A stretch of 51,299 nt of DNA from an uncultured Bacteroidota bacterium (GTDB lineage: Bacteria; Bacteroidota; Bacteroidia; Flavobacteriales; Flavobacteriaceae), in assembly GCA_902510475.1 (NCBI GenBank), contig CABXCC010000008.1, positions 1-51,299 on the forward strand, in the 5' to 3' direction. Shown here piece by piece: positions 11,840 to 35,710 of the stretch. The translations under genes were made by a program, and so were the position numbers. Each line of letters begins with the position of its first letter. Position 1 is the first letter of the stretch. The notes under the pieces are model-generated. The model saw only the letters and a program-made list of their open reading frames with translations, made no database searches and was not told where the DNA came from.

Positions 11840-12172
11840 TTATTTTTTTAACTCTAGTTTTTCAGCAAAATAGTCACAAAAATCTAACATTGTCTGAGAC
11901 ATCTTTTCATCTTGGGTTGCTCGATTAAAAGTTGTTGCCATACTTGAAAGTATCTGATGAAAGAAAATTTTCATTTCATCTAAAGGCATGTCCTTAGTCC
12001 ACAAATCAATACGTAAACTTTCTTTTCTTTTTGAATCCCATACTGATAAAAAAGCTGCTTTTGTTTCATGGTCTTTAATGCCAGCATCACTGGCTGACCA
12101 TAGAATTTTTTCTGGAATTTTATTCTCGTCTAACTCTACAGAAATTTCAATTTTTGATTTTTGTTTTTTCAT
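11840..12172 (-). CDS. gldC: gliding motility protein GldC
   Basis: A 110-residue cytoplasmic protein matching GldC in length and in the segments KSKIEISVELDENKIPEKI, KAAFLSVWD and DLWTKDMPLDEMKIFFHQ. GldC is found across Bacteroidota with gliding/T9SS genes; it supports gliding, but its biochemical role is unresolved. Its ATG overlaps the gldB stop by one base (TAATG), so gldB-gldC form an operon. This gene pair next to nadE is a familiar flavobacterial arrangement and supports the taxonomic reading. Nothing in the sequence suggests loss of function. Confidence 0.93.
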   Translation of the reverse strand: MKKQKSKIEISVELDENKIPEKILWSASDAGIKDHETKAAFLSVWDSKRKESLRIDLWTKDMPLDEMKIFFHQILSSMATTFNRATQDEKMSQTMLDFCDYFAEKLELKK

Positions 12173-21671: not shown

Positions 21672-22601
21672 TTACCTGTGTTTTAAATTTTCATCATTCA
21701 AAATCTGAATATAGTTTTCATATCTAGAACCTGAAATTATATTTTTTTTAAACATTTCTTTAATCCGACAATTTGGTTCGTTTAAATGAAGACAATTACT
21801 AAATTTACATTTGTTTTTTTCTCTTAAAAACTCTGGGAAAAAATCTGAAATTTCTTCTTTTTTAAAATTAACAAGACCAAAACCTTTAATTCCTGGGGTG
21901 TCAATAAGCTTTGTATTGCTATCTAAATCAAATAACTCAGCATACGTAGTTGTATGTTTACCCTGCGAATGCTGAGATGATATATCTCCCACTTTCAATT
22001 CTAAGGAAGAATCTATAGCATTTATTAATGATGTTTTACCAACACCAGAATGACCTCCAAACATAATTGTTTTTTTGGTTACTTCTTCTTTTAAATTTGT
22101 AATATTAAAATTATTAATAGTTGAGGTTAAAAGGCATTTATATCCAATATTTGAATAAATTTCAACTAGATTGTCAATCTTATTTTGCTCCTCTTTGTTA
22201 TAAATATCATATTTGTTAAATACCAATAATGTTTCAATTGAATAAGCTTCTGCGTTAACCAAAAATCTATCTATGAAACTGGTTGTAGTTATCGGATCTT
22301 TAATTGTGATAACCATGACCAATAAATCAATATTAGAAGCTAAAATGTGTGATTGCTTAGATAAATTAACGGACTTTCTTACTATATAATTCTTTCTTTC
22401 TAGAATATTTTGGATTATACCTAAATTTTCTTCGTCATTATATTCCAAAGAAAAATTAACTCTGTCCCCAACGGCTACTGGATTTGTACTTTTAAAATTC
22501 TCAAGTCTTAGTTTTCCTTTTATTTTGCATTGATAAAATTTTCCCTCATCCGTTTTGACAGAGTACCATGAACCTGTTGATTTGTAAACTGTTCCTATCA
22601 A
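21672..22601 (-). CDS. rsgA: ribosome biogenesis GTPase RsgA
   Basis: Circularly permuted GTPase that checks late 30S subunit maturation. It has 309 residues: N-terminal OB fold (about 1-70, TGSWYSVKTDEGKFYQCKIKGKLR), permuted GTPase domain with motif order G4 (NKYD), G1 (GGHSGVGKTSLIN) and G3 (DTPG), then the C-terminal zinc finger with CKFSNCLHLNEPNC. It overlaps the DAHP synthase gene by 4 bp and abuts dtd, so it is fully embedded in the aromatic operon. Confidence 0.97.
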   Translation of the reverse strand: MIGTVYKSTGSWYSVKTDEGKFYQCKIKGKLRLENFKSTNPVAVGDRVNFSLEYNDEENLGIIQNILERKNYIVRKSVNLSKQSHILASNIDLLVMVITIKDPITTTSFIDRFLVNAEAYSIETLLVFNKYDIYNKEEQNKIDNLVEIYSNIGYKCLLTSTINNFNITNLKEEVTKKTIMFGGHSGVGKTSLINAIDSSLELKVGDISSQHSQGKHTTTYAELFDLDSNTKLIDTPGIKGFGLVNFKKEEISDFFPEFLREKNKCKFSNCLHLNEPNCRIKEMFKKNIISGSRYENYIQILNDENLKHR

Positions 22602-23689
22602 TTACTATCTGTTTTTAAAATCATCTCCTGATGATTAATTGATTCTTGATGAATTGCTTTGAAAACCTTCAAAATAAATTCCTCACTTAAATTTTTTTCA
22701 TCACCTTCAAGTATCATCTTTCCCAAAATTTCATTCCACCTCTTAGATTGCAAAACTGCTACGTTATTTTTCTTTTTTAACAACCCAATTTTTTCAGCAA
22801 CATCCATTCTATTACCTAAGATATTAATTAATTGATTATCATATAAATTTATCTGAGTTCTTAAATTTTTAAGTTTATCATTATAACCCTCATTATCAGT
22901 GGTAGCACCTCTAATTATCAGATTTTTTGTCAGTAGTTTTAATTCTTTTGGAGTAATTTGCTGCTTTGCATCACTCCAGGCATTTTCTGGGTCATTATGA
23001 GATTCTATCATTAATCCATCGTAGTTTAAATCTAAAGCTGTTTGACACAAATCAAAAATTAAATCTCTTCTCCCAGCTATGTGAGAAGGGTCTAGTATTA
23101 AAGGCAAATCAGGTAATTTTCTTTGTAAATCAATTGCTATTTGCCATTCTGGATTGTTTCTGTATTTTGTTTTTTCATATGTAGAAAATCCTCTGTGAAT
23201 TGCTCCGATATTTTTAATATTTGAAGAATAAAATCTTTCAATTGCACCCATCCATAAGGACAAATCTGGGTTAACAGGGTTTTTTATCAAAACTATTTTT
23301 TTTGTCCCTCTGAGTGCCTCCGCAATTTCTTGAACGATAAAAGGGCTTACAGTTGTTCTGGCCCCAATCCATAAAATATCTATTTCATTCTTCAAAGCAA
23401 GATCAACATGATTAGCATTTGCAACTTCGGTAGTAGTTAATATCCCTGTTTCTTTTTTCGCTTTTTTCAACCATTCTAATGCCAATGCTCCAACTCCTTC
23501 AAAATTACCTGGTCTGGTTCTGGGTTTCCATATACCAGCTCTGTATATTGTAGCATCTGAGTCTTTTAATTGATTTGCGATATCTAATACTTGAACTTCT
23601 GTTTCTGCACTACATGGTCCTGCTATTAAAAGTGGGTGTGATAGATTCATATCATCTAACCATTTTCTTAAACTTCTGCTATTTTTCAT
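22598..23689 (-). CDS. bifunctional DAHP synthase / chorismate mutase
   Basis: Opens the shikimate pathway (PEP plus erythrose-4-phosphate to DAHP) and also converts chorismate to prephenate. It has 363 residues: a type I-beta DAHP synthase barrel at about 15-265 (LIAGPCSAETE, YRAGIWKPRTRPGNFEG, IKNPVNPDLSLW, LDPSHIAGRRD, DGLMIESHNDP) fused to a C-terminal AroQ-type chorismate mutase at about 275-350 (LRTQINLYDNQLINILGNRM, EKIGLLKKKNNVAVLQSKRW). The C-terminal mutase fusion is familiar in Bacteroidota, where it can confer prephenate feedback on the synthase. It lies 2 bp after tyrA and overlaps rsgA by 4 bp. Confidence 0.95.
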   Translation of the reverse strand: MKNSRSLRKWLDDMNLSHPLLIAGPCSAETEVQVLDIANQLKDSDATIYRAGIWKPRTRPGNFEGVGALALEWLKKAKKETGILTTTEVANANHVDLALKNEIDILWIGARTTVSPFIVQEIAEALRGTKKIVLIKNPVNPDLSLWMGAIERFYSSNIKNIGAIHRGFSTYEKTKYRNNPEWQIAIDLQRKLPDLPLILDPSHIAGRRDLIFDLCQTALDLNYDGLMIESHNDPENAWSDAKQQITPKELKLLTKNLIIRGATTDNEGYNDKLKNLRTQINLYDNQLINILGNRMDVAEKIGLLKKKNNVAVLQSKRWNEILGKMILEGDEKNLSEEFILKVFKAIHQESINHQEMILKTDSN

Positions 23690-23691
23690 AA

Positions 23692-24546
23692 TTAATTAAT
23701 TCCTTTTAATATCTTTTTAATGTAATTAGTTTTCTTTAATTGTGACTCTAACTCTTCAAATTTATTTGATTCTATTAAATCTTTAATAAGCTCTAAATTA
23801 TTAATGTAGTCTGAAAGAGATTTTAAAACATTTGCTTTGTTATCATCAAAAATATCAGTCCACATTTTAGGAGAACTTTTTGCTAATCTAACAGTTGACT
23901 CAAAACCACTTCCTGCCATATCAAAAATATTTTTTTCACTTTCTTCTTCATCCATAACAGTTTTTCCTAACATAAATGAACTTAAATGTGAAAGATGAGA
24001 AACATAGGCAATGTGCTTATCATGAGAAATAGAATCCATATAACTAACAATCATCTTCATTTTTGAGAAAATTTCTAAAGCAGTATTAATGATGTTGTCA
24101 TTTGATTTTTGGTGTTCACAAATAATTATATTCTTAGTGTTGAAAAGTCCATAATGAGCTGCATTTGGTCCTGAAAATTCGGTACCAGCAATAGGATGAG
24201 CTGCAACAAAATTTGATCTATTTTTATGATTCACTACGGATTTACAAATTGAATTTTTTGTAGAGCCAAAATCAATAACAATGGTATCTTGAGTAGATTT
24301 ATCAAGAACATTTGGAAGTGTGTTTATTATTGACTTTACAGGGATTGCAAGTAATACCATAAAAGGGTTTGTGATATCCTCAATCGATCCTATTGCATCG
24401 ATTATTCCCAAATTGATAGCTTGATCTAAATTTTCTGTGGAATTATCTATTCCAATTATATTTGAATCAGGAAAAATTTTTTTTATTTCTAATGCAAAAC
24501 TACCCCCGATTAAACCAACACCAATTATGTATATTTTTCGACTCAT
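23692..24546 (-). CDS. tyrA: prephenate dehydrogenase
   Basis: Oxidatively decarboxylates prephenate to 4-hydroxyphenylpyruvate on the way to tyrosine. It has 284 residues. The N-terminal Rossmann fold begins IYIIGVGLIGGSFALEIK (GxGxxGGS) with the acidic NAD-selecting residue at the end of beta-2 (IGIDNS). Family landmarks are VIDFGSTKNSI, the catalytic-His region FVAAHPIAGTEFSGP, and SHDKHIAYVSHLSHL. There is no ACT or mutase domain; the mutase is supplied by the next gene. It overlaps the aminotransferase by 4 bp. Confidence 0.95.
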   Translation of the reverse strand: MSRKIYIIGVGLIGGSFALEIKKIFPDSNIIGIDNSTENLDQAINLGIIDAIGSIEDITNPFMVLLAIPVKSIINTLPNVLDKSTQDTIVIDFGSTKNSICKSVVNHKNRSNFVAAHPIAGTEFSGPNAAHYGLFNTKNIIICEHQKSNDNIINTALEIFSKMKMIVSYMDSISHDKHIAYVSHLSHLSSFMLGKTVMDEEESEKNIFDMAGSGFESTVRLAKSSPKMWTDIFDDNKANVLKSLSDYINNLELIKDLIESNKFEELESQLKKTNYIKKILKGIN

Positions 24547-25685
24547 AATCTGCTAATGGCTTTAATTATATTTTCCTTTGCATTACATAGTGAAAAACGA
24601 ACATAACCTTCACCATTTGATCCAAAAATACTTCCAGGTGCTATAAAAATCTGATGATTATTTAACAAGTCATCAATAAAATCGATTGAGGACATATCTT
24701 TTTTAATCTTTGCCCAAACAAATAATCCAGATGAATTTTTTGAATATGTACAATTTAGCTTATCAGCTAATTTCCATATTAATATTCTTCTTTCAGAATA
24801 TATTTTATTTTGGGACAAAAACCAATTTGAAGACTGATTTAGAGCAGAAATGGCTCCAATTTGTAATGGATAGAACATTCCAGAATCTATATTACTTTTT
24901 ACCTTTAAAATATTAGAAATATATTTATTATTTGAAATTGCAAAGCCCAATCTCCAACCAGCCATATTAAAACTTTTGCTCAGAGAATTTAATTCTATAC
25001 ATGTTTCTTTTGCTCCTTTTACACTTAATAAACTTATCGGATTATCATTTAAAATGAAACTATATGGATTATCATTAATTAATAATATATTATTTGTCTT
25101 TGCGAAATCAATAAGATCTTCAAAAAATGAAATTGATGCGTTTGCTCCTGTAGGCATATGAGGATAATTAATCCACATTATTTTAACATCAGTTAAATCA
25201 ATTTTACTTAACTCTTTTATATTTGGAAGCCAATTATTTTTTTCAGACAGATCATAGTATATGATATCATTTCCCAATAAATTTGAAATTGAAGAATAAG
25301 TTGGGTACCCAGGATTAGGAACCAAAACCTTATCGTTTTTTTCTAAAAAAGACATTGAAATATGAAAAATACCTTCTTTACTACCGATTAAAGGTAGTAT
25401 TTCATTTTTAGGGTTTAATCGAACATTGAAATAAGATTGATAGAAATTAGAAATTTCACTTCGAAACAATTCGATCCCATTATAACTTTGATATTTATTT
25501 GCGTTTTTGTCATTTAATGCTTTCGTTAAGTTTTCTAATGAAGATTTTGGGGGTTTCAAATCAGGGCTGCCAATTCCAAGATTAATAATGTCTTTTCCTT
25601 GATCTATTAAGGATCTTACCTCTCTTAATTTTTTTGAAAAGTAATATTCCGTTATTCTATCTAATCTTTCAGAGTGCTTAATCAT
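24543..25685 (-). CDS. class I/II aminotransferase (aromatic operon)
   Basis: PLP-dependent fold-type I aminotransferase. By position it probably transaminates phenylpyruvate and 4-hydroxyphenylpyruvate, or prephenate, but substrate range cannot be read from sequence. Seen: INLGIGSPDLKPP, PNPGYPTYSS, the NDNPYSF Asn/Tyr pair, and the PLP lysine in SLSKSFNMAGWRLGF. The frame is open up to ATG 25706, but MIKHSERLDRITEYYFSKKL from ATG 25685 matches how relatives begin and reduces the overlap with pheA from 29 to 8 bp, so I take 25685 (380 residues); 25688 is also possible. It overlaps tyrA by 4 bp. Confidence 0.92.
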   Translation of the reverse strand: MIKHSERLDRITEYYFSKKLREVRSLIDQGKDIINLGIGSPDLKPPKSSLENLTKALNDKNANKYQSYNGIELFRSEISNFYQSYFNVRLNPKNEILPLIGSKEGIFHISMSFLEKNDKVLVPNPGYPTYSSISNLLGNDIIYYDLSEKNNWLPNIKELSKIDLTDVKIMWINYPHMPTGANASISFFEDLIDFAKTNNILLINDNPYSFILNDNPISLLSVKGAKETCIELNSLSKSFNMAGWRLGFAISNNKYISNILKVKSNIDSGMFYPLQIGAISALNQSSNWFLSQNKIYSERRILIWKLADKLNCTYSKNSSGLFVWAKIKKDMSSIDFIDDLLNNHQIFIAPGSIFGSNGEGYVRFSLCNAKENIIKAISRL

Positions 25686-26505
25686 CATTTGAATTTTTAT
25701 ACTCACCTAAAACCTTAAATTCCTTGGCCATAATTTGAATAATTGACTTTGCTTTTAAGTAATTATCAAGATTTTCAAAAGTAACATCTACAAAAAAAGA
25801 ATATCTCCATGGAGTTTCTATTTTAGGCATAGATTGAATTTTTGTTAGATTTAATTTACAGTCACTAATTACATTCAAGATGGTTGCTAAACTTCCTCTT
25901 TTATGGTCTAATTCAAATTTTAATGATGCTTTATTTATTTGCAATTTGTCTAAACTGATGTCTTTTTTTAGGACAACAAAACGGGTTTGATTTTTTTTAA
26001 TTGATTGAATGTCTTCTTTGATTAAATTAAGATCATAAATTTTAGCCGCCAATTTACTTGCAATAGCTCCAATTCCCATAGCTTTTGTATTAGATATTTT
26101 CTTTGCAACATTGGCGGTATCCTTTTCTTCTACTAGTTTAAAACTTGGGTTTTCTTTCAAAAAATCTCTGCATTGTAGAAGTGCCATGGGATGCGAATGA
26201 ATTTCTTTTATATCATCAAGAGATTGACCTTTCAAAGCCATTAAATTATGTGATATCTCTAAATAATGTTCTCCAACAATATTTATATTATATTCATCAA
26301 TCAGTGCATAGTTGGGAATTATTGATCCGGCTGTTGAATTTTCAATAGCCATTAAAGCATATTGAATCTCATTTTTAGAGAGAGAGAAAATCATATCTTC
26401 AAAAGATAGATATTCGTAAAGTTTTATTTCTTTATCAAAGTAATTTTCAACAGCGATGTGGTGGAATGAGCCCCTAATTCCTTGAATACCAATTTTCTTT
26501 TTCAT
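25678..26505 (-). CDS. pheA: prephenate dehydratase with ACT domain
   Basis: Converts prephenate to phenylpyruvate. It has 275 residues from ATG 26505: dehydratase domain at about 1-180 (IGIQGIRGSFHHIAVENYF, MAIENSTAGSI, the catalytic KKNQTRFVVL motif) and an ACT domain at about 190-270. The Phe-binding ESRP motif reads QSMP and the GALV position reads GSLA, so allosteric response may differ from the enterobacterial enzyme. The frame stays open to ATG 26538, but that start lies inside the terminator hairpin; the ATG at 26505 directly follows the T-run and gives MKKKIGIQG, the natural N-terminus. First structural gene of the aromatic operon, under the attenuator at 26506-26627. Confidence 0.95.
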   Translation of the reverse strand: MKKKIGIQGIRGSFHHIAVENYFDKEIKLYEYLSFEDMIFSLSKNEIQYALMAIENSTAGSIIPNYALIDEYNINIVGEHYLEISHNLMALKGQSLDDIKEIHSHPMALLQCRDFLKENPSFKLVEEKDTANVAKKISNTKAMGIGAIASKLAAKIYDLNLIKEDIQSIKKNQTRFVVLKKDISLDKLQINKASLKFELDHKRGSLATILNVISDCKLNLTKIQSMPKIETPWRYSFFVDVTFENLDNYLKAKSIIQIMAKEFKVLGEYKNSNDD

Positions 26506-26533
26506 AAAAAAAAAGTCCCGAAATATTCGAGAC
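26506..26533 (-). terminator. attenuator: intrinsic terminator abutting the pheA start codon
   Basis: Read on minus, GTCTCGAA (26533-26526) pairs with TTTCGGGAC (the 26522-26515 arm; 8 pairs including one G-T wobble, loop TAT) and is followed by nine T residues (26514-26506). The pheA ATG (26505) is the very next base. Since it sits between the Phe/Tyr-rich leader peptide and pheA on the same strand, it fits an attenuator terminator. It cannot simply end the upstream gapN transcript without also blocking pheA. Confidence 0.85.
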
Positions 26534-26568
26534 CACATTTAGTTAATTTAAATCTATTAAATAGCCTC
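26529..26568 (-). promoter_or_regulatory. candidate antiterminator pairing
   Basis: GAGGCTA (26568-26562) can pair with TGGTCTC (26535-26529): seven pairs, two of them G-T. The right arm takes most of the 5' arm of the terminator, so the two structures exclude each other. The left arm begins at the last base of the leader-peptide stop codon, so a ribosome finishing the peptide would cover it and allow termination, while a ribosome stalled on Phe or Tyr codons would leave it free. The helix is modest and AT-rich surroundings weaken the case. Confidence 0.5.
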
Positions 26569-26627
26569 TAGTTCCTTTGAAAATAAAAGAAAAAATAAAA
26601 GTTTAAAAAATAGTTGTAAAAATTCAT
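26568..26627 (-). CDS. Phe/Tyr-rich attenuation leader peptide
   Basis: A 19-codon open frame, MNFYNYFLNFYFFFYFQRN, then TAG. Eleven of 19 residues are aromatic: seven Phe and four Tyr, the end products of the operon that follows. It is upstream of pheA on the same strand, with a terminator hairpin 34 bp after its stop and the pheA ATG right after that. This is the architecture of amino-acid attenuation leaders such as pheL in enterobacteria: scarce charged tRNA-Phe or tRNA-Tyr would stall the ribosome and favour readthrough. No Shine-Dalgarno is visible, normal for Bacteroidota. I saw no clear -7 box upstream, so the transcript may start in, or run on from, the gapN 3' end. Too short to be called by ordinary gene finders. 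Confidence 0.8.
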   Translation of the reverse strand: MNFYNYFLNFYFFFYFQRN

Positions 26628-26684
26628 ATAAATATATATTGGACTAATGTAAATAATATTTTTAATTAAAAAAAGAAAGTTTGA

Positions 26685-28277
26685 TTAAAGAATATAATCA
26701 GTAGAAACAAAATTAGAATTATCTGATCCTAATAAATCCTTAATAATTTTATTATTTTCTTTGTTATCTTTTGAAGCAACAAAAGTTCTAATCGAAAACG
26801 ATCTTAATGCATCATGTACACTTAAAGTGCTAAAAGCAGAATCTTTTCTTCCTGTAAAAGGATAAATATCAGGGCCTCTTTGACAAGAACTGTTTATGTT
26901 TACTCTACATACAAGATTAACCAAAGTATCTATTAATGGGCCTAGTGTATTTGTATTTTTTCCAAAAACACTTACTTGCTGACCGTAATTTGATTCAGCC
27001 ATATCCTCAAGAGGTGTGTCAATATCTTTGAAGGAAATAATCGGTACTACTGGACCAAATTGCTCGTCCTTATATACATCCATGTCCTTAGAAACAGGAA
27101 AAAGAATAGCTGGAAATACATAATTTTCACAGCTCTTACCTCCATTTTTGTTCATGATTTTCGCTCCTTTAGACTGAGCGTCAGAAATTAACTCTTGAAT
27201 ATACTTTGGTTTACTTGGCTCAGGCAGCGGAGTAAGATTTACATTTTCATCCCATGGATTCCCATACTTTAATTTATCAACTTCATTTGAAAATCTTTCA
27301 ATAAAAACATCCTTCACATCTTCATGTACATAAATTATTTTAAGTGCAGTGCATCTTTGGCCGTTGAAGGATAGGGCTCCGTTTATACATTCTTTAATAG
27401 TTAAATCTAAATCAGCATCAGGCATAATAATAGCAGGGTTTTTTGCTTCTAAACCTAATACCAATCTTAGTCTATTTTTCTTAGGATGAGATTCTTGAAG
27501 AGCATTTGCAGATGAACTATGACCAATTAATGCTAAAACATTAATTTTTCCGGACTCCATAATTGGTGTAGCTAAAACTCTACCCCTTCCAAATAACACA
27601 TTTACTACTCCAGGTGGAAAATGTTTTTGAAATGCCTCCATTAGCGGAGATATTAATAAAACCCCATGCTTTGCAGGTTTAAAAATAACCGTATTTCCCA
27701 TCATAAGAGCTGGGATTAATAAACAAAACGTTTCATTTAACGGGTAATTATATGGCCCAAGACAGAGAACAACTCCTAATGGTCCTCTTCTTATGTGAGC
27801 ATTTATTCCACTATTTTTTTGAAACTTAGCAGAGTCTCTATCGATTTGCTTATATGCCTCTATGGTGTCGTATATATAATCAACTGTTCTATCAAACTCT
27901 TTTTTTGAATCGTTGTGGTTTTTACCAATTTCCCACATTAACAGATTTACAACTTCTTCTCTTTTACCCTTCATTTCTTCAACGAAACTTTCCATTGCCT
28001 TGATTCGATCAACGACTTTCATGGTAGGCCAGAGTCCCTTTCCATTATCGAAAGCTTTACAGGCGGAGTCTAATGCTTCTATGGCTTGATCTTTACCTAA
28101 ACTAGGTATCTCTCCGAGAAGCGTAGGCTTATATTTTTCATGAGACGAAATTGTAGAATATACGGGTGAAAAATTCCCTTTCCAAGAAACAAGTTTTCCA
28201 TTAACAAGATAATTATCTTGTATAACTGTTTCATTGATTTTAAAATGATTTGGTATTGGTGAAAATTTAAAGTCCAT
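26685..28277 (-). CDS. gapN: NADP-dependent non-phosphorylating glyceraldehyde-3-phosphate dehydrogenase
   Basis: Aldehyde-dehydrogenase-fold enzyme that probably oxidises glyceraldehyde-3-phosphate directly to 3-phosphoglycerate, making NADPH and bypassing ATP formation. It has 530 residues. Seen: oxyanion-hole GPYNYPLNE (Asn177), [12 protein letters not shown] (cofactor site), general base in [10 protein letters not shown] (Glu277), and nucleophile in [10 protein letters not shown] (Cys309); FNGQRCTA and the N-terminal style fit the GapN branch better than other ALDHs. It is about 35 residues longer than plant and streptococcal GapN, with extra sequence at both ends. It is monocistronic or read through toward the pheA leader 57 bp downstream, as no terminator is visible. 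Confidence 0.85.
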
Positions 28278-28355: not shown

Positions 28356-29336
28356 ATGTTTTCTATTACAATGCATAGAAACAACAAGCAGAAATATTAC
28401 ATATTAAATTATCTAAAACTAATTATTCCCGATTTCTTTTTCAGAACGAGGTTAAATATTAAATTAAAAAACTTAACAAATTATGATTACGATCATGTAA
28501 AGTCAAGGGTAAATTATTACAATAAGCTCAAAAAAAAAACAGACTTACCAGAAGGAATTAAGAACCTAAATTCTTTCAAGATTAAAAACCATCACAGAAC
28601 CTACTTTTTTGACACATATGAGTACAGTAGATTTTTTAAAAAAAGATTCAAAATAAATATGCTCTTCGGAGACATAGTTCACATCCCTAAATTGCCATCA
28701 GTTGTTAAAAGTAGACCAATTTCTGATAAAAATGAAAATTCTATTTTATTAAAGTTAAATAAGGTTAGACATTTCACTTATACACGTGACAAGAACAATT
28801 TCAAAGAAAAACAAAATATACTTATTGGAAGATCGGCAATAACTAAAAAGCATAAAAAAAGGATAGAATTTTTTAAAAAATACTTTAATAATAATTTATG
28901 CGATTTGGGCAAAATAAATAAAAATGGAGTTCATGACGAATGGTTGAAGAATAAAATCTCTATTGAAAATCACTTAAAATATAAATTTGTAATGTGTGTT
29001 GAGGGAGTTGATGTAGCCACAAATTTAAAATGGGTAATGTCTTCAAATTCAATTGCAGTAATGCCAAAGCCAGAGATAGAATCCTGGTTCATGGAAAAAA
29101 CATTAATACCAGATTTTCATTATATAGAAATAAAAAACGATTATTCAGATTTAGAAGAAAAATTAAATTATTATTTAAATAATTTAAATAAATGTTTAGA
29201 AATAATTAAGAACGCAAATAAATATGTTTCTCAATTTAAAAATAAAGAAAGAGAAGATATAATTTCCTTATTAGTTTTGAAAAAATATTTTTATTACACG
29301 AATCAGATAAAAGAATTTAGCAACTTGGATTATTAA
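28356..29336 (+). CDS. GT90 (CAP10/LpsA-type) family glycosyltransferase
   Basis: A 326-residue cytoplasmic, very Lys/Asn/Phe-rich protein. The C-terminal half has the GT90 pattern: LNKVRHFTYTRDKN (about 134-147), NILIGRSAITKKHKKRIEFFKKYF, LCDLGKIN, then EGVDVATNLKWVMSSNSIAV (216-235) and MPKPEIESWFMEKTLIPDFHY. Such enzymes add xylose, glucose or galactose to polysaccharide or LPS cores; donor and acceptor are unknown here. ATG 28371 is an alternative start. It is the only plus-strand gene between 17.5 and 40.6 kb, unrelated to its neighbours, and its 3' end overlaps ilvA by 20 bp. Composition and setting suggest a gene acquired late. Confidence 0.78.
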   Translation: MFSITMHRNNKQKYYILNYLKLIIPDFFFRTRLNIKLKNLTNYDYDHVKSRVNYYNKLKKKTDLPEGIKNLNSFKIKNHHRTYFFDTYEYSRFFKKRFKINMLFGDIVHIPKLPSVVKSRPISDKNENSILLKLNKVRHFTYTRDKNNFKEKQNILIGRSAITKKHKKRIEFFKKYFNNNLCDLGKINKNGVHDEWLKNKISIENHLKYKFVMCVEGVDVATNLKWVMSSNSIAVMPKPEIESWFMEKTLIPDFHYIEIKNDYSDLEEKLNYYLNNLNKCLEIIKNANKYVSQFKNKEREDIISLLVLKKYFYYTNQIKEFSNLDY

Positions 29337-30324
29337 TCATCCATGTTTTTGCTCTTTGGTTTATTTCCGGTAGTCTCTGTTCATCATTATTACCACCACA
29401 AATTATACAAACAACATTCTTATTAATTATCTTGTCTTTGTATTGTCTTAAAGCAGCAGCTGACATTGCTCCTGCTGGTTCGGCTATTATCCCCTCAATT
29501 TTATTTAAATCTAATATAGATTTACATATTTCTCCTTCATCAATTAATATGATATCATCTAAAAATTCTTTACAGTAATCAAAACTATAATTACCCACTT
29601 TTTTCACTGCAGCTCCGTCCACAAAACCATTGATTTTTTCAAGAGTTACTAATTTGTTTTGCTCAAGTGATTTAAGCATTGAGGGAGCCCCCATGGGCTC
29701 AATCCCAACTATTTTAGTTGACGGACTAAGTTGTTTAAAAACGTTAATTGCACCAGAAATTAATCCTCCTCCTCCTATGGGAATAAATATATAATCAATT
29801 TTATTTTTAAACTGATTTAAAATTTCAAGAAAAACTGTTGCTTGACCCTCAATAACTTTAATGTCATCAAAAGGATGAATAAAAGTCTTGCCGTTGGTTT
29901 TACAATCCTCTAATGCTTTTTTATAGGCCTGTGTAAAATTATTACCAAAAAGAACTACCTCGACATTGTCTTTACCAAATTTTTTTACCTGCTTAATTTT
30001 TTGATTTGGAGTAGTAACTGGCATAAAAACCTTACCTCGATAACCCAACATTTCACAACTTACGGCAAAACCTTGAGCATGATTACCCGCACTTGCGCAT
30101 ACAATTCCGTTCTTAACCTCCTGAGCACTTAAACTTATTATTTTATTATAAGCTCCTCGAATTTTAAATGATCTAATTTTTTGAAGATCCTCTCTCTTAA
30201 AAAAAATTTTAGAATTATATATGTCAGAATAAGTTTTGACTTCGTAAAAAGATGTATTAATAGCTACACTAGAAAGATTTTTGTGAGCAGTTTGTATTTT
30301 CCTTAATTCAATAAATTTATTCAC
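29317..30324 (-). CDS. ilvA: threonine ammonia-lyase without regulatory domain
   Basis: Deaminates threonine to 2-oxobutanoate, the entry to isoleucine. It has 335 residues. The PLP lysine is in RSFKIRGAYNK (Lys54); SAGNHAQGFA and the phosphate-binding GGGGLISGA follow, and VCIICGGNND closes the fold-type II catalytic domain. The protein ends some 20 residues later (PEINQRAKTWMINNPSC), where flavobacterial IlvA normally runs on about 80 residues into an ACT-like regulatory domain. Its last six codons overlap the convergent GT90 gene. The result resembles a short, TdcB-sized enzyme that may not be inhibited by isoleucine. Last gene of the ilv operon; start and ilvC stop share one base. Confidence 0.9.
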   Translation of the reverse strand: MNKFIELRKIQTAHKNLSSVAINTSFYEVKTYSDIYNSKIFFKREDLQKIRSFKIRGAYNKIISLSAQEVKNGIVCASAGNHAQGFAVSCEMLGYRGKVFMPVTTPNQKIKQVKKFGKDNVEVVLFGNNFTQAYKKALEDCKTNGKTFIHPFDDIKVIEGQATVFLEILNQFKNKIDYIFIPIGGGGLISGAINVFKQLSPSTKIVGIEPMGAPSMLKSLEQNKLVTLEKINGFVDGAAVKKVGNYSFDYCKEFLDDIILIDEGEICKSILDLNKIEGIIAEPAGAMSAAALRQYKDKIINKNVVCIICGGNNDEQRLPEINQRAKTWMINNPSC

Positions 30325-31793
30325 TAAAATAAATTTTTCATCGCGGTCATAGACTTTCTTAATTCTAAGCCGATCCTTTCTACCGGATGATTATTTATTT
30401 CAAAGTTAATTTTTTTAAGTAAGTCTTGGTCAATTTGTACTGGATTATTAATCCCCACTCCAATATCAGTAGAGTCTAACATGTCAATAAAATTTTCTAA
30501 TAACGGTTTTGCTTCATTAGAAAATAAATAACATCCATACTCTGCAGTATCTGAAATAATACTGTTCATTTCATAAAGTTTTTTTCTAGAAACTAAATTC
30601 GCAATTAATGGTAATTCATGTAAGGATTCATAATAAGCAGATTCATCAATTATTCCCGATGAAACCATAGTTTCAAATGCCAGCTCAACCCCAGACTTTA
30701 CAAAAGCAATCATTACAATTCCTTTTTCAAAATATTCTGATGTAGAAATATCTTCAGTAGATGAAATGGTTTTTTCAAAATTTGTATTCCCAGTTTCTTC
30801 TCTCCAGTTTAATAACTTTAAATCATCATTACCCCAATCTTTCATCATACCAAGTGAAAATTCACCTGAAATTATATCATCCATGTGTTTTTCAAATAAA
30901 GGCTTCATAATTGATTTTAAATTATCCGAGAGCTCACAAGCTTTAACTTTGGACTGATCAGATAATTGATCCATCATTTTAGTAATACCTCCATGCTTTA
31001 AAGATTCTGTGATTACTTCCCATCCATTTTGAAGTAACTTCGATGCATAATTTTTATCAATACCCAAAGAAACCATCTTGTCAAATAATAAAATTGACGC
31101 TGTTTGTAAAACACCACATAATATTGTTTGTTCACCCATTAAGTCGCTTTTTACTTCAGCAACAAAAGATGACTCTAATACACCTGCTCTATGTGAACCT
31201 AAGGAATAGGCATAAGCTTTTGCTAGTTCTAATCCTAAACCCTTAGGATCATTTGAATAATGAACTGCGATTAGTGTTGGCACCCCAAATCCTCTTTTAA
31301 ATTCTTCTCTTACTTCAGTCCCAGGACATTTTGGAGCAACCATTATAACTGTAATATCTTCTCTTATCTTAACCCCTTCTTCAACAATATTAAATCCGTG
31401 TGAGTAAGATAAAACACTATTTTTTTTCATCAGCGGCATTACTGATTTTACGACTTGAGTATGATTTTTATCAGGGGTTAAATTGATAACAACATCTGCA
31501 TTAGGGATTAGCTTTTCAAATGTTCCTACATTAAATCTGTTAGAAGTTGCGTTGATAAAAGATGGTCTTTTGGAAGCTATTGATGATGCACGCAATGCGT
31601 ACGAAATATCTAAACCAGAATCTTTCATGTTTAATCCTTGGTTTAGTCCTTGTGCACCACAACCAACAATTACAATTTTTTTATTTTTTAGAAGCGAGTT
31701 TTTATTTTTAAACTCGTCTAAATTCATAAATCTACATTTTGATAATTGATGAATTTTTTCTGATTCAGTCAATGAATTAAAATAATTATTCAT
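30324..31793 (-). CDS. ilvC: ketol-acid reductoisomerase, class II (long form)
   Basis: Isomerises and reduces acetolactate or acetohydroxybutyrate with NADPH and Mg2+. At 489 residues it is the long, E. coli-like class II form with a duplicated knotted C-terminal domain. The Rossmann motif is [20 protein letters not shown] at about 41-60, followed by the phosphate-contacting [13 protein letters not shown] loop; Mg2+ ligands lie in the [13 protein letters not shown] segment (Asp and Glu). The start overlaps ilvN by 8 bp and the stop shares a base with ilvA. Fourth gene of the ilvDBNCA operon. Confidence 0.97.
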
Positions 31794-32328
31794 TTTTATT
31801 TTTTTTAAAATCTGTTAATATTTCTGAGATCATTAATGGAGCTTTTGTTACAGCAATTCTTGCAGATCTTACATATTGTAAAATTCCATAATTACTTAGT
31901 TTTTCATAAAGCTCATCTAATTCATGTGTTCTTCCGGATTTCTCTATCACAAAAAATTCCGGATTAACTGTGACAATCAATGCATTGCTTTCTTTAATAA
32001 TATTTTGAATTTGTCTATCATCAAAAAGTAAAGATGATTTGATTTTAAAAAGACAAGATTCTTGATAGATGGTTTCTTCGTCAGTGTGATAGTATGCTTT
32101 AATAACTTCAATTTGCTTATTTATCTGACCAACAATTTTTTTGATTTGAACTTCGGTAGTTAAAATAAGAATTGTCCATCTTTGTACACTTTCAATTTCT
32201 GTCATTGACGAATTAAAACTTTCTATATTAATATGACGACGTTGAAAAATTGCAGAAATTCGGTTTAATAATCCAACACTGTCTTCCGTGTATACAGAAA
32301 CTGTATATTTATTTGTTTTTTTACTCAT
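31786..32328 (-). CDS. ilvN: acetolactate synthase regulatory (small) subunit
   Basis: A 180-residue regulatory subunit that raises activity of IlvB and confers branched-chain amino-acid feedback. An N-terminal ACT domain ([34 protein letters not shown], about 8-41) is followed by a second domain ending in AIVTVNPEF- and [18 protein letters not shown]-like segments, the IlvH/IlvN layout. It lies 4 bp after ilvB and overlaps ilvC by 8 bp. The presence of this ACT-bearing subunit contrasts with the loss of the regulatory domain in the neighbouring ilvA. Confidence 0.95.
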
Positions 32329-32332
32329 ATTG

Positions 32333-34021
32333 TTAACTTAATCTAATTTCTGAAACAGAAGAGCCAGTTGGTATCATAGGAAATACGTTACCTTCTTTTT
32401 CAACTACAACCTCCAAAAAATAAGGTTCATCAGATTTAATCATTTCTTCAACTGCATTTGCAAGGTCTTTGCGTTCTGTCACTCTTTTTGCCTTTAAATA
32501 ATATCCCTCAGCAATTTTAACAAAATCTGGATTTACCATTTCAGTTGAAGCATATCTTTTATCAAAAAATAATTGTTGCCATTGTCTTACCATTCCTAAA
32601 AAATCATTATTTAAAACAACTATTTTAACAGCAGCTTTAGTCTGGAAAACAGTCCCAAGCTCTTGAATAGTCATTTGATAACCTCCATCACCAATCACTG
32701 CTACCACTTCCCTTTCTGGAGATGCCATTTTAGCTCCAATTGCAGCAGGCAAAGCAAACCCCATTGTACCTAATCCTCCTGAGGTTATGTTGCTTTTTGA
32801 TTTATTGAAATTTGCATATCTACATGCAACCATCTGATGCTGACCCACATCAGATACGATAGCTGCATTCCCTTTTGTTTGGAAATTAATTTCTTTGATA
32901 ACCTCACCCATAGTTAACCCCTTTTTGGATGGGTTTAATTCCCCATCAATCACTTTATCATATTCAATTTTGTAAAGCTTTTTAAATTGATCCAACCAGT
33001 TTTTATATGATTTTTTATCGATTAATGGAATTATTTTAGAAAGAGTTTCCTTTGCGTCACCAAGAACAGGAATATCAACCTCAATGTTCTTATTTACTTC
33101 AGCAGGATCAATTTCAAAATGAATTATTTTAGCTTGTTTAGCATACCTGTTTACATCACCAGTGACTCTGTCATCAAACCTCATACCTATTGCAATTAGA
33201 ACATCACATTCATTGGTTAAAACATTTGGAGCATAATTACCATGCATTCCTAACATACCAACGTTAAGACTATGATCAGTTGGAATGGCTGATGCACCCA
33301 ATATTGTCCACGCAGCTGGTATTCCAGATTTTTCTATTAAATCTGTAAATTCCTTTTCAGCATTACCTAATATTACTCCTTGACCCCAAACTATTAATGG
33401 CTTTTCAGCCTTATTAATTAAATCAGCCGCTTTTTTAATTTGATCCATATTAATGATGGGTGTCGGTTTATAGCTTCTTATTCCGTTAATCCTTTTGTAT
33501 GAAAAATTAAATTCTTCAAATTGTGCATCTTTGGTAATGTCAATCAATACAGGACCAGGTCTTCCACTTTTAGCTATATAAAATGCCTTGGCAAAAATTT
33601 CAGGAATTTCTGAGGCTTTAGTTATTTGATAATTCCATTTTGTTATTGGGGTAGAGATACCTATTATATCTGTTTCTTGAAATGCATCACTACCTAATAA
33701 GTGTGAGCCAACCTGACCCGTTATACAAACCATTGGAGTCGAATCAATTTGGGCATCAGCTATACCGGTTACAAGATTTGTAGCTCCAGGACCTGAAGTA
33801 GCAATAGCTACACCTACCCTTCCGGAAATTCTTGCAAATCCCTGAGCTGAATGAGTTGCCCCTTGCTCATGTCTAGTTAGAACGTGTTGAATCTTATCTT
33901 GGTATTTATATAACTCATCATAAACAGGCATTATTGCTCCACCCGGATACCCATAAATTATATCAACACCTTCTTCTAATAGACATTTTATTACAGCTTC
34001 ACTACCTGAAATTTTAGACAT
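32333..34021 (-). CDS. ilvB: acetolactate synthase catalytic (large) subunit
   Basis: ThDP-dependent condensation of two pyruvates, or of pyruvate and 2-oxobutanoate; first common step of Val, Leu and Ile synthesis. It has 562 residues. Catalytic Glu lies in VLTRHEQGATHSAQGFAR; the FAD/central domain follows (MLGMHGNYAPN, RFDDRVTG); the ThDP-Mg2+ motif GDGGYQMTIQELGT ending at NNDFLGMVRQWQ is C-terminal. It lies 6 bp after ilvD and 4 bp before ilvN. All domains are full length. Confidence 0.97.
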   Translation of the reverse strand: MSKISGSEAVIKCLLEEGVDIIYGYPGGAIMPVYDELYKYQDKIQHVLTRHEQGATHSAQGFARISGRVGVAIATSGPGATNLVTGIADAQIDSTPMVCITGQVGSHLLGSDAFQETDIIGISTPITKWNYQITKASEIPEIFAKAFYIAKSGRPGPVLIDITKDAQFEEFNFSYKRINGIRSYKPTPIINMDQIKKAADLINKAEKPLIVWGQGVILGNAEKEFTDLIEKSGIPAAWTILGASAIPTDHSLNVGMLGMHGNYAPNVLTNECDVLIAIGMRFDDRVTGDVNRYAKQAKIIHFEIDPAEVNKNIEVDIPVLGDAKETLSKIIPLIDKKSYKNWLDQFKKLYKIEYDKVIDGELNPSKKGLTMGEVIKEINFQTKGNAAIVSDVGQHQMVACRYANFNKSKSNITSGGLGTMGFALPAAIGAKMASPEREVVAVIGDGGYQMTIQELGTVFQTKAAVKIVVLNNDFLGMVRQWQQLFFDKRYASTEMVNPDFVKIAEGYYLKAKRVTERKDLANAVEEMIKSDEPYFLEVVVEKEGNVFPMIPTGSSVSEIRLS

Positions 34022-34027
34022 AATATA

Positions 34028-35710
34028 TTAATTAAATTCATCTGTTACACAACCATTTGAAGCAGATGAAACAATATTTGCATACTTAAAAAGAGAACCA
34101 CTACTCGCCTTTATTTTTGGTTGTATCCAACTTTTTTTTCTGTCAATTATTTCTTGCTTACTTATGTGTAAATTAATCTTATTTTTGCTGGCATCAATCG
34201 AAATTTCATCACCATTCTTTATTAATGCAATTGCTCCTCCAACTTGTGCTTCGGGTGTAATGTGACCAACTACGAAACCATGGGTACCTCCCGAAAATCT
34301 ACCGTCTGTAATTAAAGCAACATGCTTACCTAAACCTGCTCCCATTATACCAGCTGTTGGCTTTAACATTTCTGGCATACCCGGCCCACCTTTTGGGCCA
34401 ACATATCTTATTACAACAACATCACCTCTTTCTACCTGACCGTTTTTAATTCCGTTATTAGCATCCTCCTCTGAATCATAGACTTTTGCAGGGCCAGTAA
34501 ATTGCAAGCCTTCTTTTCCAGTTATTTTTGCTACACTACCTTCTTCAGCAAGATTCCCATATAAAATCCTAATATGACCAGTAGGTTTAATTGGTTTTTC
34601 AATTGATCTTATAACATCCTGGTCAAAATTAAGAACTTTTACATTGTTAAGATTTTCTTTTAAAGATTTTCCGGTAACCGTTAAACACTCCCCGTGTAAA
34701 AAGCCAGAGTCTAATAAATATTTTAGCACAATTGGTATTCCACCAATTTCATGTAAATCCTCCATAAGGTATTTACCACTTGGCTTCAGGTCGGCAATAA
34801 AGGGAGTTTTTTCGCTAATTCTTTGGAAATCATCCAAAGTAAAATCAACTTTTGCAGCCCTTGCAATTGCCAAAAAATGTAATACGGCATTTGTTGATCC
34901 CCCTAATGCAACAACAGTAGTTACTGCATTTTCGATTGATTTTTTATTGATAATATCTAATGGTTTAATATCCTGCTCAATTATTAACTTAATAGCTTTT
35001 CCAGCTTCTTTGGAAATATTTTTCCTTTGATCATCATTTGCAGGAACTGAAGAGGAATAGGGCATTGACATGCCTAAGGCCTCTATTGCAGATGCCATAG
35101 TATTAGCAGTGTACATCCCACCACATGCTCCTGATCCTGGACATGATTTTTTTATAATGCTCCTGTATTCGATATTATCAATTTTTCCAGAAACATTGCC
35201 ACCCCAGGCTTCAAATGCTGAAACAATATCTAGTTTCTTATTTTTATGACATCCTGAATCGATGGTTCCACCATACAATAAAATTGAGGGTCTATTTAAA
35301 CGAATCATACCCATTAATGCACCAGGCATATTTTTATCACATCCTACAACTGTAATTAATCCATCATAACTCATTGCTTGAACCACGGTTTCTACAGAGT
35401 CGGCAATTATATCTCTTGACGGCAAAGAATATCTCATTCCAGGAGTTCCCATTGAGATTCCGTCGCTTACACCTATTGTATTGAATATTAAACCAACATA
35501 ATCAATTGACTCTACCCCAGACTTTACGTCTAGAGCCAACTTATTTAGATGCATATTACACGGATTTCCTTCGTAACCAGTACTTGCAATTCCTATTAAA
35601 GGCTTTTCAAAATCCTCATCTGAAAAACCAATAGCATAAAGCATAGCCTGAGCTGCAGGTTGTGAATTATCCTGTGTAATCACATGACTATGTTTATTTA
35701 ATTTTTTCAT
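34028..35710 (-). CDS. ilvD: dihydroxy-acid dehydratase
   Basis: Fe-S enzyme of valine and isoleucine synthesis, dehydrating dihydroxy acids to 2-oxo acids. It has 560 residues. Cluster-ligand cysteines appear in [24 protein letters not shown] and [35 protein letters not shown] is the C-terminal signature. It is first in the ilvDBNCA operon. A strong hairpin with T-run lies only 18-62 bp before the ATG (35728-35772), so either a promoter overlaps it or transcripts must read through it. Confidence 0.97.

Follow-up and report, generated by a model that had tools for sequence, protein, structure and literature searches.

The question raised by this locus is whether the short gap in front of pheA, in the stretch of DNA analyzed here (51,299 nucleotides, hereafter the window), holds a regulatory element for the aromatic biosynthesis genes behind it. 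The gap comprises 179 nt (26506–26684, minus strand), separates an aldehyde dehydrogenase-like gene from pheA and contains, in this order, a −7 box, a short leader ORF and a hairpin with a T run (Table 1). A preliminary description made from the sequence had claimed a 19-residue, Phe/Tyr-rich minus-strand frame with 11 aromatic residues just ahead of pheA, and both content and site were borne out: translation of 26568–26627 gave MNFYNYFLNFYFFFYFQRN and a stop codon, with 7 Phe and 4 Tyr among the 19 residues, and the ORF lies inside the gap, 5' of pheA. Gene calls likewise agreed with the claimed pheA–aminotransferase–tyrA order downstream, and a gene for a DAHP synthase fused to chorismate mutase (AroF_CM) comes next. 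Among the matches listed, tyrA was the only one of the four operon genes to pass an NCBIfam cut-off.

Table 1. Features of the pheA upstream gap and of the genes on either side of it, in the direction of transcription
Feature	Position	Strand	Basis
Aldehyde dehydrogenase-like gene, upstream neighbour	26685–28277	−	ORF list
Predicted promoter, −7-like box TACATTAG	26644–26651	−	one mismatch to TAnnTTTG
Leader peptide ORF MNFYNYFLNFYFFFYFQRN plus stop, control codons Phe/Tyr	26568–26627	−	translation and comparative survey
Region 2, predicted antiterminator 5' arm GAGGCTAT	26561–26568	−	pairs with region 3, G–U pairs included
Region 3 GTGGTCTC, predicted antiterminator 3' arm, overlapping the terminator 5' arm	26529–26536	−	folding
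Predicted intrinsic terminator GGTCTCGAA-TAT-TTCGGGACT, then 8 T	26506–26534 (hairpin 26534–26514)	−	scan; fold −9.6 kcal/mol
pheA, prephenate dehydratase	25678–26505	−	PF00800 over cut-off; NCBIfam prephenate dehydratase below cut-off
PLP-dependent aminotransferase (putative, specificity-neutral label)	24543–25706	−	NCBIfam matches listed all below cut-off
tyrA, prephenate dehydrogenase	23692–24546	−	NCBIfam NF006307 over cut-off
aroF-type DAHP synthase fused to chorismate mutase (AroF_CM)	22598–23689	−	NCBIfam matches listed below cut-off

The true start of pheA is most likely the ATG at 26505, which the T run of the terminator abuts. An alternative in-frame ATG at 26538 would give a pheA ORF of 286 amino acids reading through the terminator; automatic annotation could choose it and so hide the attenuator. 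Leaders as short as this one are probably easily overlooked by gene callers. Further upstream on the same strand lies an ilvA-ilvC-ilvN-ilvB-ilvD-like cluster (29317–35710, gene names assigned by sight). The terminator scan gave no terminator-like site upstream of this cluster, and therefore no sign of an attenuator there.

Density of aromatic codons was evaluated against dinucleotide shuffles of the 179-nt gap. An ORF with at least 8 Phe/Tyr in 10 codons arose in 129 of 20,000 shuffles, or in 55 of 20,000 when ATG starts only were allowed. No other short ORF (6–60 amino acids) on either strand of the 51-kb window is equally dense, the runner-up (7 of 10) lying on the plus strand at 12161. Taken alone, the frame is suggestive, because 0.3–0.6% of the gap shuffles are as dense in this DNA of 18% G+C; the case for a leader is made by conservation.

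Of 60 relatives, 43 have a pheA homologue, as do 55 of 197 class genomes and 183 of 199 family genomes; 130 pheA upstream regions of Bacteroidia, window included, were surveyed. Forty regions came from 44 places in relatives (leaving out the second G006 copy, G059, G040 and G053), 50 from 55 class-genome matches (leaving out G000, which was already in, and G088, G181, G165 and G040), and 40 were hand-picked along the ranking of family genomes, among the matches listed. A leader was scored as an ORF of up to 60 amino acids with at least 6 Phe/Tyr in 10 codons within 250 nt. Such an ORF was present in 109 of the 130 regions, compared with 3.7% of 6,500 shuffles and none of the 130 reverse complements. 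Within the window's own family, 76 of 78 regions carry one, as do 33 of 52 outside it, so the aromatic-rich short ORF that the preliminary description expected upstream of related pheA genes is indeed there. A second collection comprised 80 named loci (Flavobacterium, Winogradskyella, Psychroserpens and others), for which Trp was counted along with Phe and Tyr; 78 passed on the forward strand and 3 on the reverse. Judged by length, seven of these loci are contigs already in the first set, and 71 of the 73 new ones passed. The two misses are L158 and L197. The gene order PheA > AT > TyrA > AroF_CM held at all 77 of the named loci for which 4 kb or more of downstream sequence was available.

The 21 regions below threshold are of several kinds, some without explanation. 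Leaders remain visible below threshold at L027 (MNRLENTFNSFYFIYDR), L044 (…TYFWFYPASKREG) and L047 (…TYFWFYPTLSTGG). At L019 (genome G033) the leader lies ~510 nt upstream, beyond inserted repeats (L274); these repeats, with GGCGGGATC-type hairpins, sit between leader and pheA, and L158 has a similar short ORF in place of a leader. At L036 and L039, pheA stands directly behind another gene, as judged by sight. A covariance model (R1) matched 103 of 120 genomes, its training set being partly the same genomes. Twenty R1 matches were followed up (L261–L280): eight precede pheA, two are leaders before other genes (L268 and L269), and at ten a convincing leader was not found.

Upstream of the leader, the window's box TACATTAG sits 16 nt ahead of the leader ATG. 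Within 60 nt before the leader ATG, the motif TAnnTT(T/A/C)G occurs at 86 of the 109 leader loci, compared with 11% of mononucleotide-shuffled regions, which is consistent with a promoter at this place; TAnnTTTG is the Bacteroidetes sigma-A −7 consensus according to PMC9723704.

The content of the leaders was then compared. Both Phe and Tyr occur in each of the 109 leader cores, Tyr at 3.4 times expectation, a figure inflated by the selection on density. Trp, which did not count towards the density by which the set was selected, occurs in 42 of the 109 cores against 11.8 expected. Most other residues are rarer than expected, Asn and Thr lying ~1.5-fold above. The genus leaders have Phe-Phe-Tyr seven to five codons before the stop (positions −7 to −5), encoded by TTC in 15 of 15, TTT in 14 of 15 and TAT in 15 of 15. 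Pairwise differences over the last 12 codons of the genus leaders amount to 92 synonymous and 372 non-synonymous (32 of them aromatic-to-aromatic), so that constraint is confined to the aromatic run, with no purifying signal over the whole peptide. For the window we do not claim Trp sensing: Trp is absent from all 17 genus leaders (L001–L017), though sister species keep trpE.

The decisive part of the element is the terminator together with the competing antiterminator arm, neither of which the preliminary description had mentioned. The window hairpin is the sole minus-strand terminator-like site between 19.5 and 38.5 kb; the pattern alone is not significant, with 2 such sites on both strands of this interval against 6.6 expected from shuffles. 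Across the survey, a terminator lies between the last aromatic codon of the leader and pheA at 108 of the 109 loci. At these 108, p values taken against mononucleotide-shuffled spacers show a spacer segment (region 2) complementary to the terminator 5' arm with p ≤ 0.05 in 82 and p ≤ 0.01 in 55; for the window p is 0.03, which is moderate only. The first base of region 2 in the window is the third base of the leader stop codon and lies 14 nt beyond the start of the last aromatic codon. The same distance recurs as the median across loci (14 nt, sd 2.4), whereas the offset from the stop codon varies freely (−31 to +8, sd 9.0); the search for region 2 started at +6 nt, which sets a lower bound on the register. 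A distance of ~14 nt is roughly the ribosome's downstream reach from the A-site codon, and stalling on the last aromatic codon would therefore leave region 2 just uncovered.

Folding was limited to the RNA that exists at the moment the terminator 5' arm is complete. The arm formed on average 10.2 pairs with the first 25 nt of the spacer (minimum 5), compared with 3.5 for shuffled spacers, and the segment from leader to arm folded with z < −2 in 84 of 108 loci (median z −3.34). For the window this segment gave −9.1 kcal/mol (z −2.45), beside −9.6 for the terminator. A looser criterion of at least 4 pairs was unselective, being reached at 108 of 108 loci but also in 2,059 of 4,320 spacer shuffles. 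When foreign arms were set against a locus's spacer, on average 91% of them fitted no better than the locus's own arm and 80% fitted strictly worse; for the window's arm the figure is 80%, which falls short of nearly all. The evidence for the antiterminator is accordingly moderate for the window alone and strong for the family. The fold of minimum free energy for the whole window leader was no better than shuffles (z −0.88), and whole-leader folding is uninformative because terminator and antiterminator compete. Alignment A2 (MAFFT, 59 sequences) has six column triples that span regions 2, 3 and 4, and joint variation shows in one of them (G-C-G 18, A-T-A 17, A-T-G 13, others 11). The other five are not clean, region 2 being one column off in GGGAC-type sequences; because of this misalignment the full covariation count was dropped, and the shuffles and the own-versus-foreign arms were relied on.

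According to the preliminary description, the frame matches a Phe/Tyr leader peptide in ribosome-mediated attenuation; the leader in 109 of 130 regions, the terminator at 108 of 109 loci and the arm in near-constant register support that proposal. Given leader, terminator, competing arm, register, conservation and changing control codons, all read from sequence comparison, we consider it very probable that the element is a ribosome-mediated transcription attenuator of the pheA–aminotransferase–tyrA–aroF/CM operon. From this arrangement we infer a promoter, ribosome stalling and termination as follows. Transcription would start just upstream of the leader, as the −7 box implies, and a ribosome would translate the 19-codon leader behind RNA polymerase. 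With ample charged tRNA-Phe and tRNA-Tyr, it would reach the UAG stop and cover region 2, leaving region 3 to pair with region 4; the terminator would form and transcription would end before pheA. With charged tRNA scarce, the ribosome would stall in the Phe/Tyr run, and once the last aromatic codon occupied the A site, region 2 would be just free to pair with region 3, the terminator would be blocked and the operon would be transcribed.

Loci at which related elements precede other genes were then compared. At eight of nine TrpE-type loci in the window's genus (L241–L249), a WWW leader (e.g. MKKLQLNMWWWKHEIFIS) occurs with the shared hairpin and T run; the ninth, L243, for which the start was not parsed, has TGGTGGTGG but without the same terminator. 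A convincing antiterminator arm was not found in the two trpE elements tested. In the window's own genome (65% complete), no IGPS was found, and a single chorismate-binding enzyme of 353 amino acids is present.

Sixteen of the 199 family genomes lack a PheA match, and none of the same 16 has a PF00800 match. In G346, which belongs to these 16, a contig edge carries a fragment of pheA together with its leader. Thirteen AroF_CM loci were parsed in family genomes without pheA (the G346 locus, L294, was not parsed). A Trp-Trp ORF precedes AroF_CM at six of these 13 (L283–L287 and L293), compared with 11 of 2,600 shuffles, and before pheA at none of the 130 regions. Each of the six is followed by a terminator; spacing from the last Trp codon is looser here, 26–35 nt. 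All six fall among the eight genomes with trpC (PF00218) and none among the five without (one-sided hypergeometric 0.016, uncorrected for shared ancestry). Four genomes of family f62 without pheA contributed five AroF_CM loci, and no aromatic leader was found at any of these. In the congeneric genome G007 (L281), pheA is missing and AroF_CM stands, by sight, behind the same upstream aldehyde dehydrogenase end; here, where pheA is absent, both the leader (MRLFSYNSQSFYFIS) and the hairpin look degenerate.

Runs of Tyr codons were found before two short phenylalanine 4-monooxygenase genes: YYYYY at L312 (…NIYYYYYPLLNFRIG, GTG start) and YYYY at L314 (MKNLNNTYYYYPILTRRIGQ), each with a terminator and matched by 1 and 0 of 1,000 shuffles, respectively. 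Both gene products pass PF00351, the L314 product lying one bit under the NCBIfam cut-off for phenylalanine 4-monooxygenase. Of five short-form hydroxylases, two have a Tyr leader with terminator, two do not and one was not parsed. At 25 long-form aromatic hydroxylase loci (L316–L340), no Tyr-rich leader with a convincing terminator was found, L330 having a weak hairpin. Across Trp-Trp, Tyr-run and WWW leaders, the predicted control codons change with the regulated gene. HisG (PF01634), sought as a second attenuator control, was absent in 21 of 21 genus genomes (56–86% complete); the genus may be without histidine synthesis.

These comparisons bear on the other ways in which the window could be read. 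Chance could make a T-rich spacer, in a gap of 18% G+C, read as Phe/Tyr codons beside an unrelated terminator of the upstream gene: the base composition and the equally dense gap shuffles speak for this, terminator-like patterns are expected randomly, and a terminator after an upstream gene is ordinary. Yet leaders are conserved in regions of up to 52% G+C (e.g. L066), each core contains both Phe and Tyr, the register is narrow, and the window hairpin comes after the leader, 150 nt past the stop of the upstream gene; conservation refutes chance for the family, and for the window its probability is negligible. Alternatively, the stall could come not from uncharged tRNA but from the aromatic peptide itself, perhaps with free Phe/Tyr as its ligand, in the way TnaC works with Trp. 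The peptide is very hydrophobic, and its core FYxFFYF is rather conserved as amino acids in the genus, but related leaders carry Tyr runs, WW or WWW instead, according to the controlled gene, and the order and number of Phe and Tyr vary widely. Sensing at the codon level fits this replacement and variability better than one peptide fold; we consider nascent-peptide arrest very improbable. We give still less credence to a small functional (membrane) peptide or a translation-coupling/reinitiation ORF, with a terminator merely trimming read-through. Reinitiation has been proposed for leader genes near structural genes, with a Bacteroidetes peak at 11–14 bp (PMC4833913), but 62 nt with a terminator between them separate the window leader stop from the pheA start, residues outside the aromatic run are variable, and the leader looks decayed in G007, in the absence of pheA.

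The alternative that carries the most weight concerns the signal: the attenuator could respond to Phe only, its Tyr codons being incidental, as for the AroR leader of Corynebacterium glutamicum, which has Phe-Tyr-Phe although Tyr availability is without effect (PMC11802643). Against this stand the Tyr in every core, in the excess given above with its inflation by density selection, and the Tyr-run leaders before phenylalanine hydroxylase genes, which speak for a control role of Tyr codons in this group without proving one for the window. A Phe-only attenuator is unlikely, and joint sensing of Phe and Tyr is the likely, though unproven, behavior of the window element.

Multivalent leaders, with control codons for several end products in one leader, are known from ilvL and thrL, which differ from the window's in serving branched-chain or Thr/Ile products in enterobacteria. 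The pheL-pheA attenuator of enterobacteria resembles the window in having a Phe-rich leader peptide and attenuation upstream of pheA; to our knowledge its control codons are Phe and include no Tyr control codons, and its type of leader is presumably the Rfam family named Phe_leader. By comparison, the present element has no Rfam match, and its operon adds the aminotransferase, tyrA and DAHP synthase. Bacteroid-trp RNA, read as an attenuator, is like the window a Bacteroidetes cis-regulatory RNA of the aromatic pathway but concerns Trp, not Phe/Tyr. It is listed as RF01692 in Table 1 of PMC2864571. According to PMC11802643, which also mentions the pheL-pheA attenuator, the AroR leader of the C. 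glutamicum aroF operon (Neshat 2014) is induced by Phe limitation, Tyr availability being irrelevant. As described there, AroR is like the window in placing a mixed Phe-Tyr-Phe leader over aromatic biosynthesis including DAHP synthase; it belongs to another phylum and has a Phe-Tyr-Phe run, whereas the window leader has 11 Phe/Tyr residues, and Trp is added in the 42 related Bacteroidia cores noted above, none of them in the window's genus.

Searches of Rfam returned no match at gathering in the window or in seven related loci. The Bacteroid-trp gathering score was unreached in the window and in these seven loci, which include the trpE loci L241 and L246, and neither Phe_leader nor Bacteroid-trp was among the five matches listed for 26480–26700 (E up to 10). 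No T-box riboswitch matched in the window. A weak BTncRNA_FopS match (21.7 bits, gathering 56, E 0.24) was taken as chance. Lopatovskaya et al. 2010 is reportedly a comparative survey of attenuation that could contain a pheA leader. The literature searched, with that survey and supplements outside its coverage, gave no Phe/Tyr leader before Bacteroidetes pheA beyond PMC9723704, and within the same limits neither the anatomy of the leader and its register nor the spread through the class, the retuning of codons or the tandem form was found. PMC9723704 reported in 2021 a structured 5' element without Rfam match upstream of pheA in Flavobacterium psychrophilum and other Flavobacteriaceae, and leader-peptide attenuation was proposed there for amino-acid operons in general. 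Its element agrees with the present one in gene, bacterial family, position in the mRNA 5' region and lack of an Rfam match; its main-text account of the pheA element gives no peptide, codons, antiterminator or mechanism, to which leader, register, class-wide spread and retuning are added here. Because this pheA element and the Corynebacterium AroR leader had already been reported, the kind is known and the site had been glimpsed before, and the finding is not wholly new. What the analysis supplies is a probable mechanism for a conserved flavobacterial 5' element earlier reported without one, and comparative evidence that leader-peptide attenuation governs the Phe/Tyr branch across much of a class.

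On balance we favor, with some reserve, a broader interpretation in which one Bacteroidia-wide attenuator platform (−7 box, leader and GTC(T/C)CG-type antiterminator/terminator) acts as a general sensor of aromatic amino acids whose control codons evolve with the genes behind. These would be Phe/Tyr, often with Trp, before the full pheA–AT–tyrA–aroF operon; Trp-Trp for DAHP synthase without pheA in Trp-making genomes; and Tyr runs before phenylalanine hydroxylase. One family would have two Phe/Tyr attenuators in series, and the window element would sense Phe and Tyr jointly. Such repeated retuning amounts to a natural experiment on what the ribosome senses. As an attenuator needs a ribosome keeping pace with RNA polymerase, its spread would imply functional transcription–translation coupling in the group, and since leader-peptide attenuation requires the ribosome close to the polymerase, these elements make coupling in Bacteroidetes directly testable. 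A review (PMC7858274) holds that uncoupled expression is maybe fairly widespread in bacteria; the word element Bacteroid- is absent from its text as available to us.

Family f62 was also searched for pheA, which is present in 46 of 60 genomes, and the best 30 loci were examined. Tandem Phe/Tyr leaders precede pheA at 11 of these best 30 (L212, L216, L217, L220, L221, L223, L224, L225, L228, L229 and L231). The first leader of L221 is without a terminator and that of the first leader of L231 is unconvincing; by the scan, both leaders are followed by a terminator at 10 of the 11.
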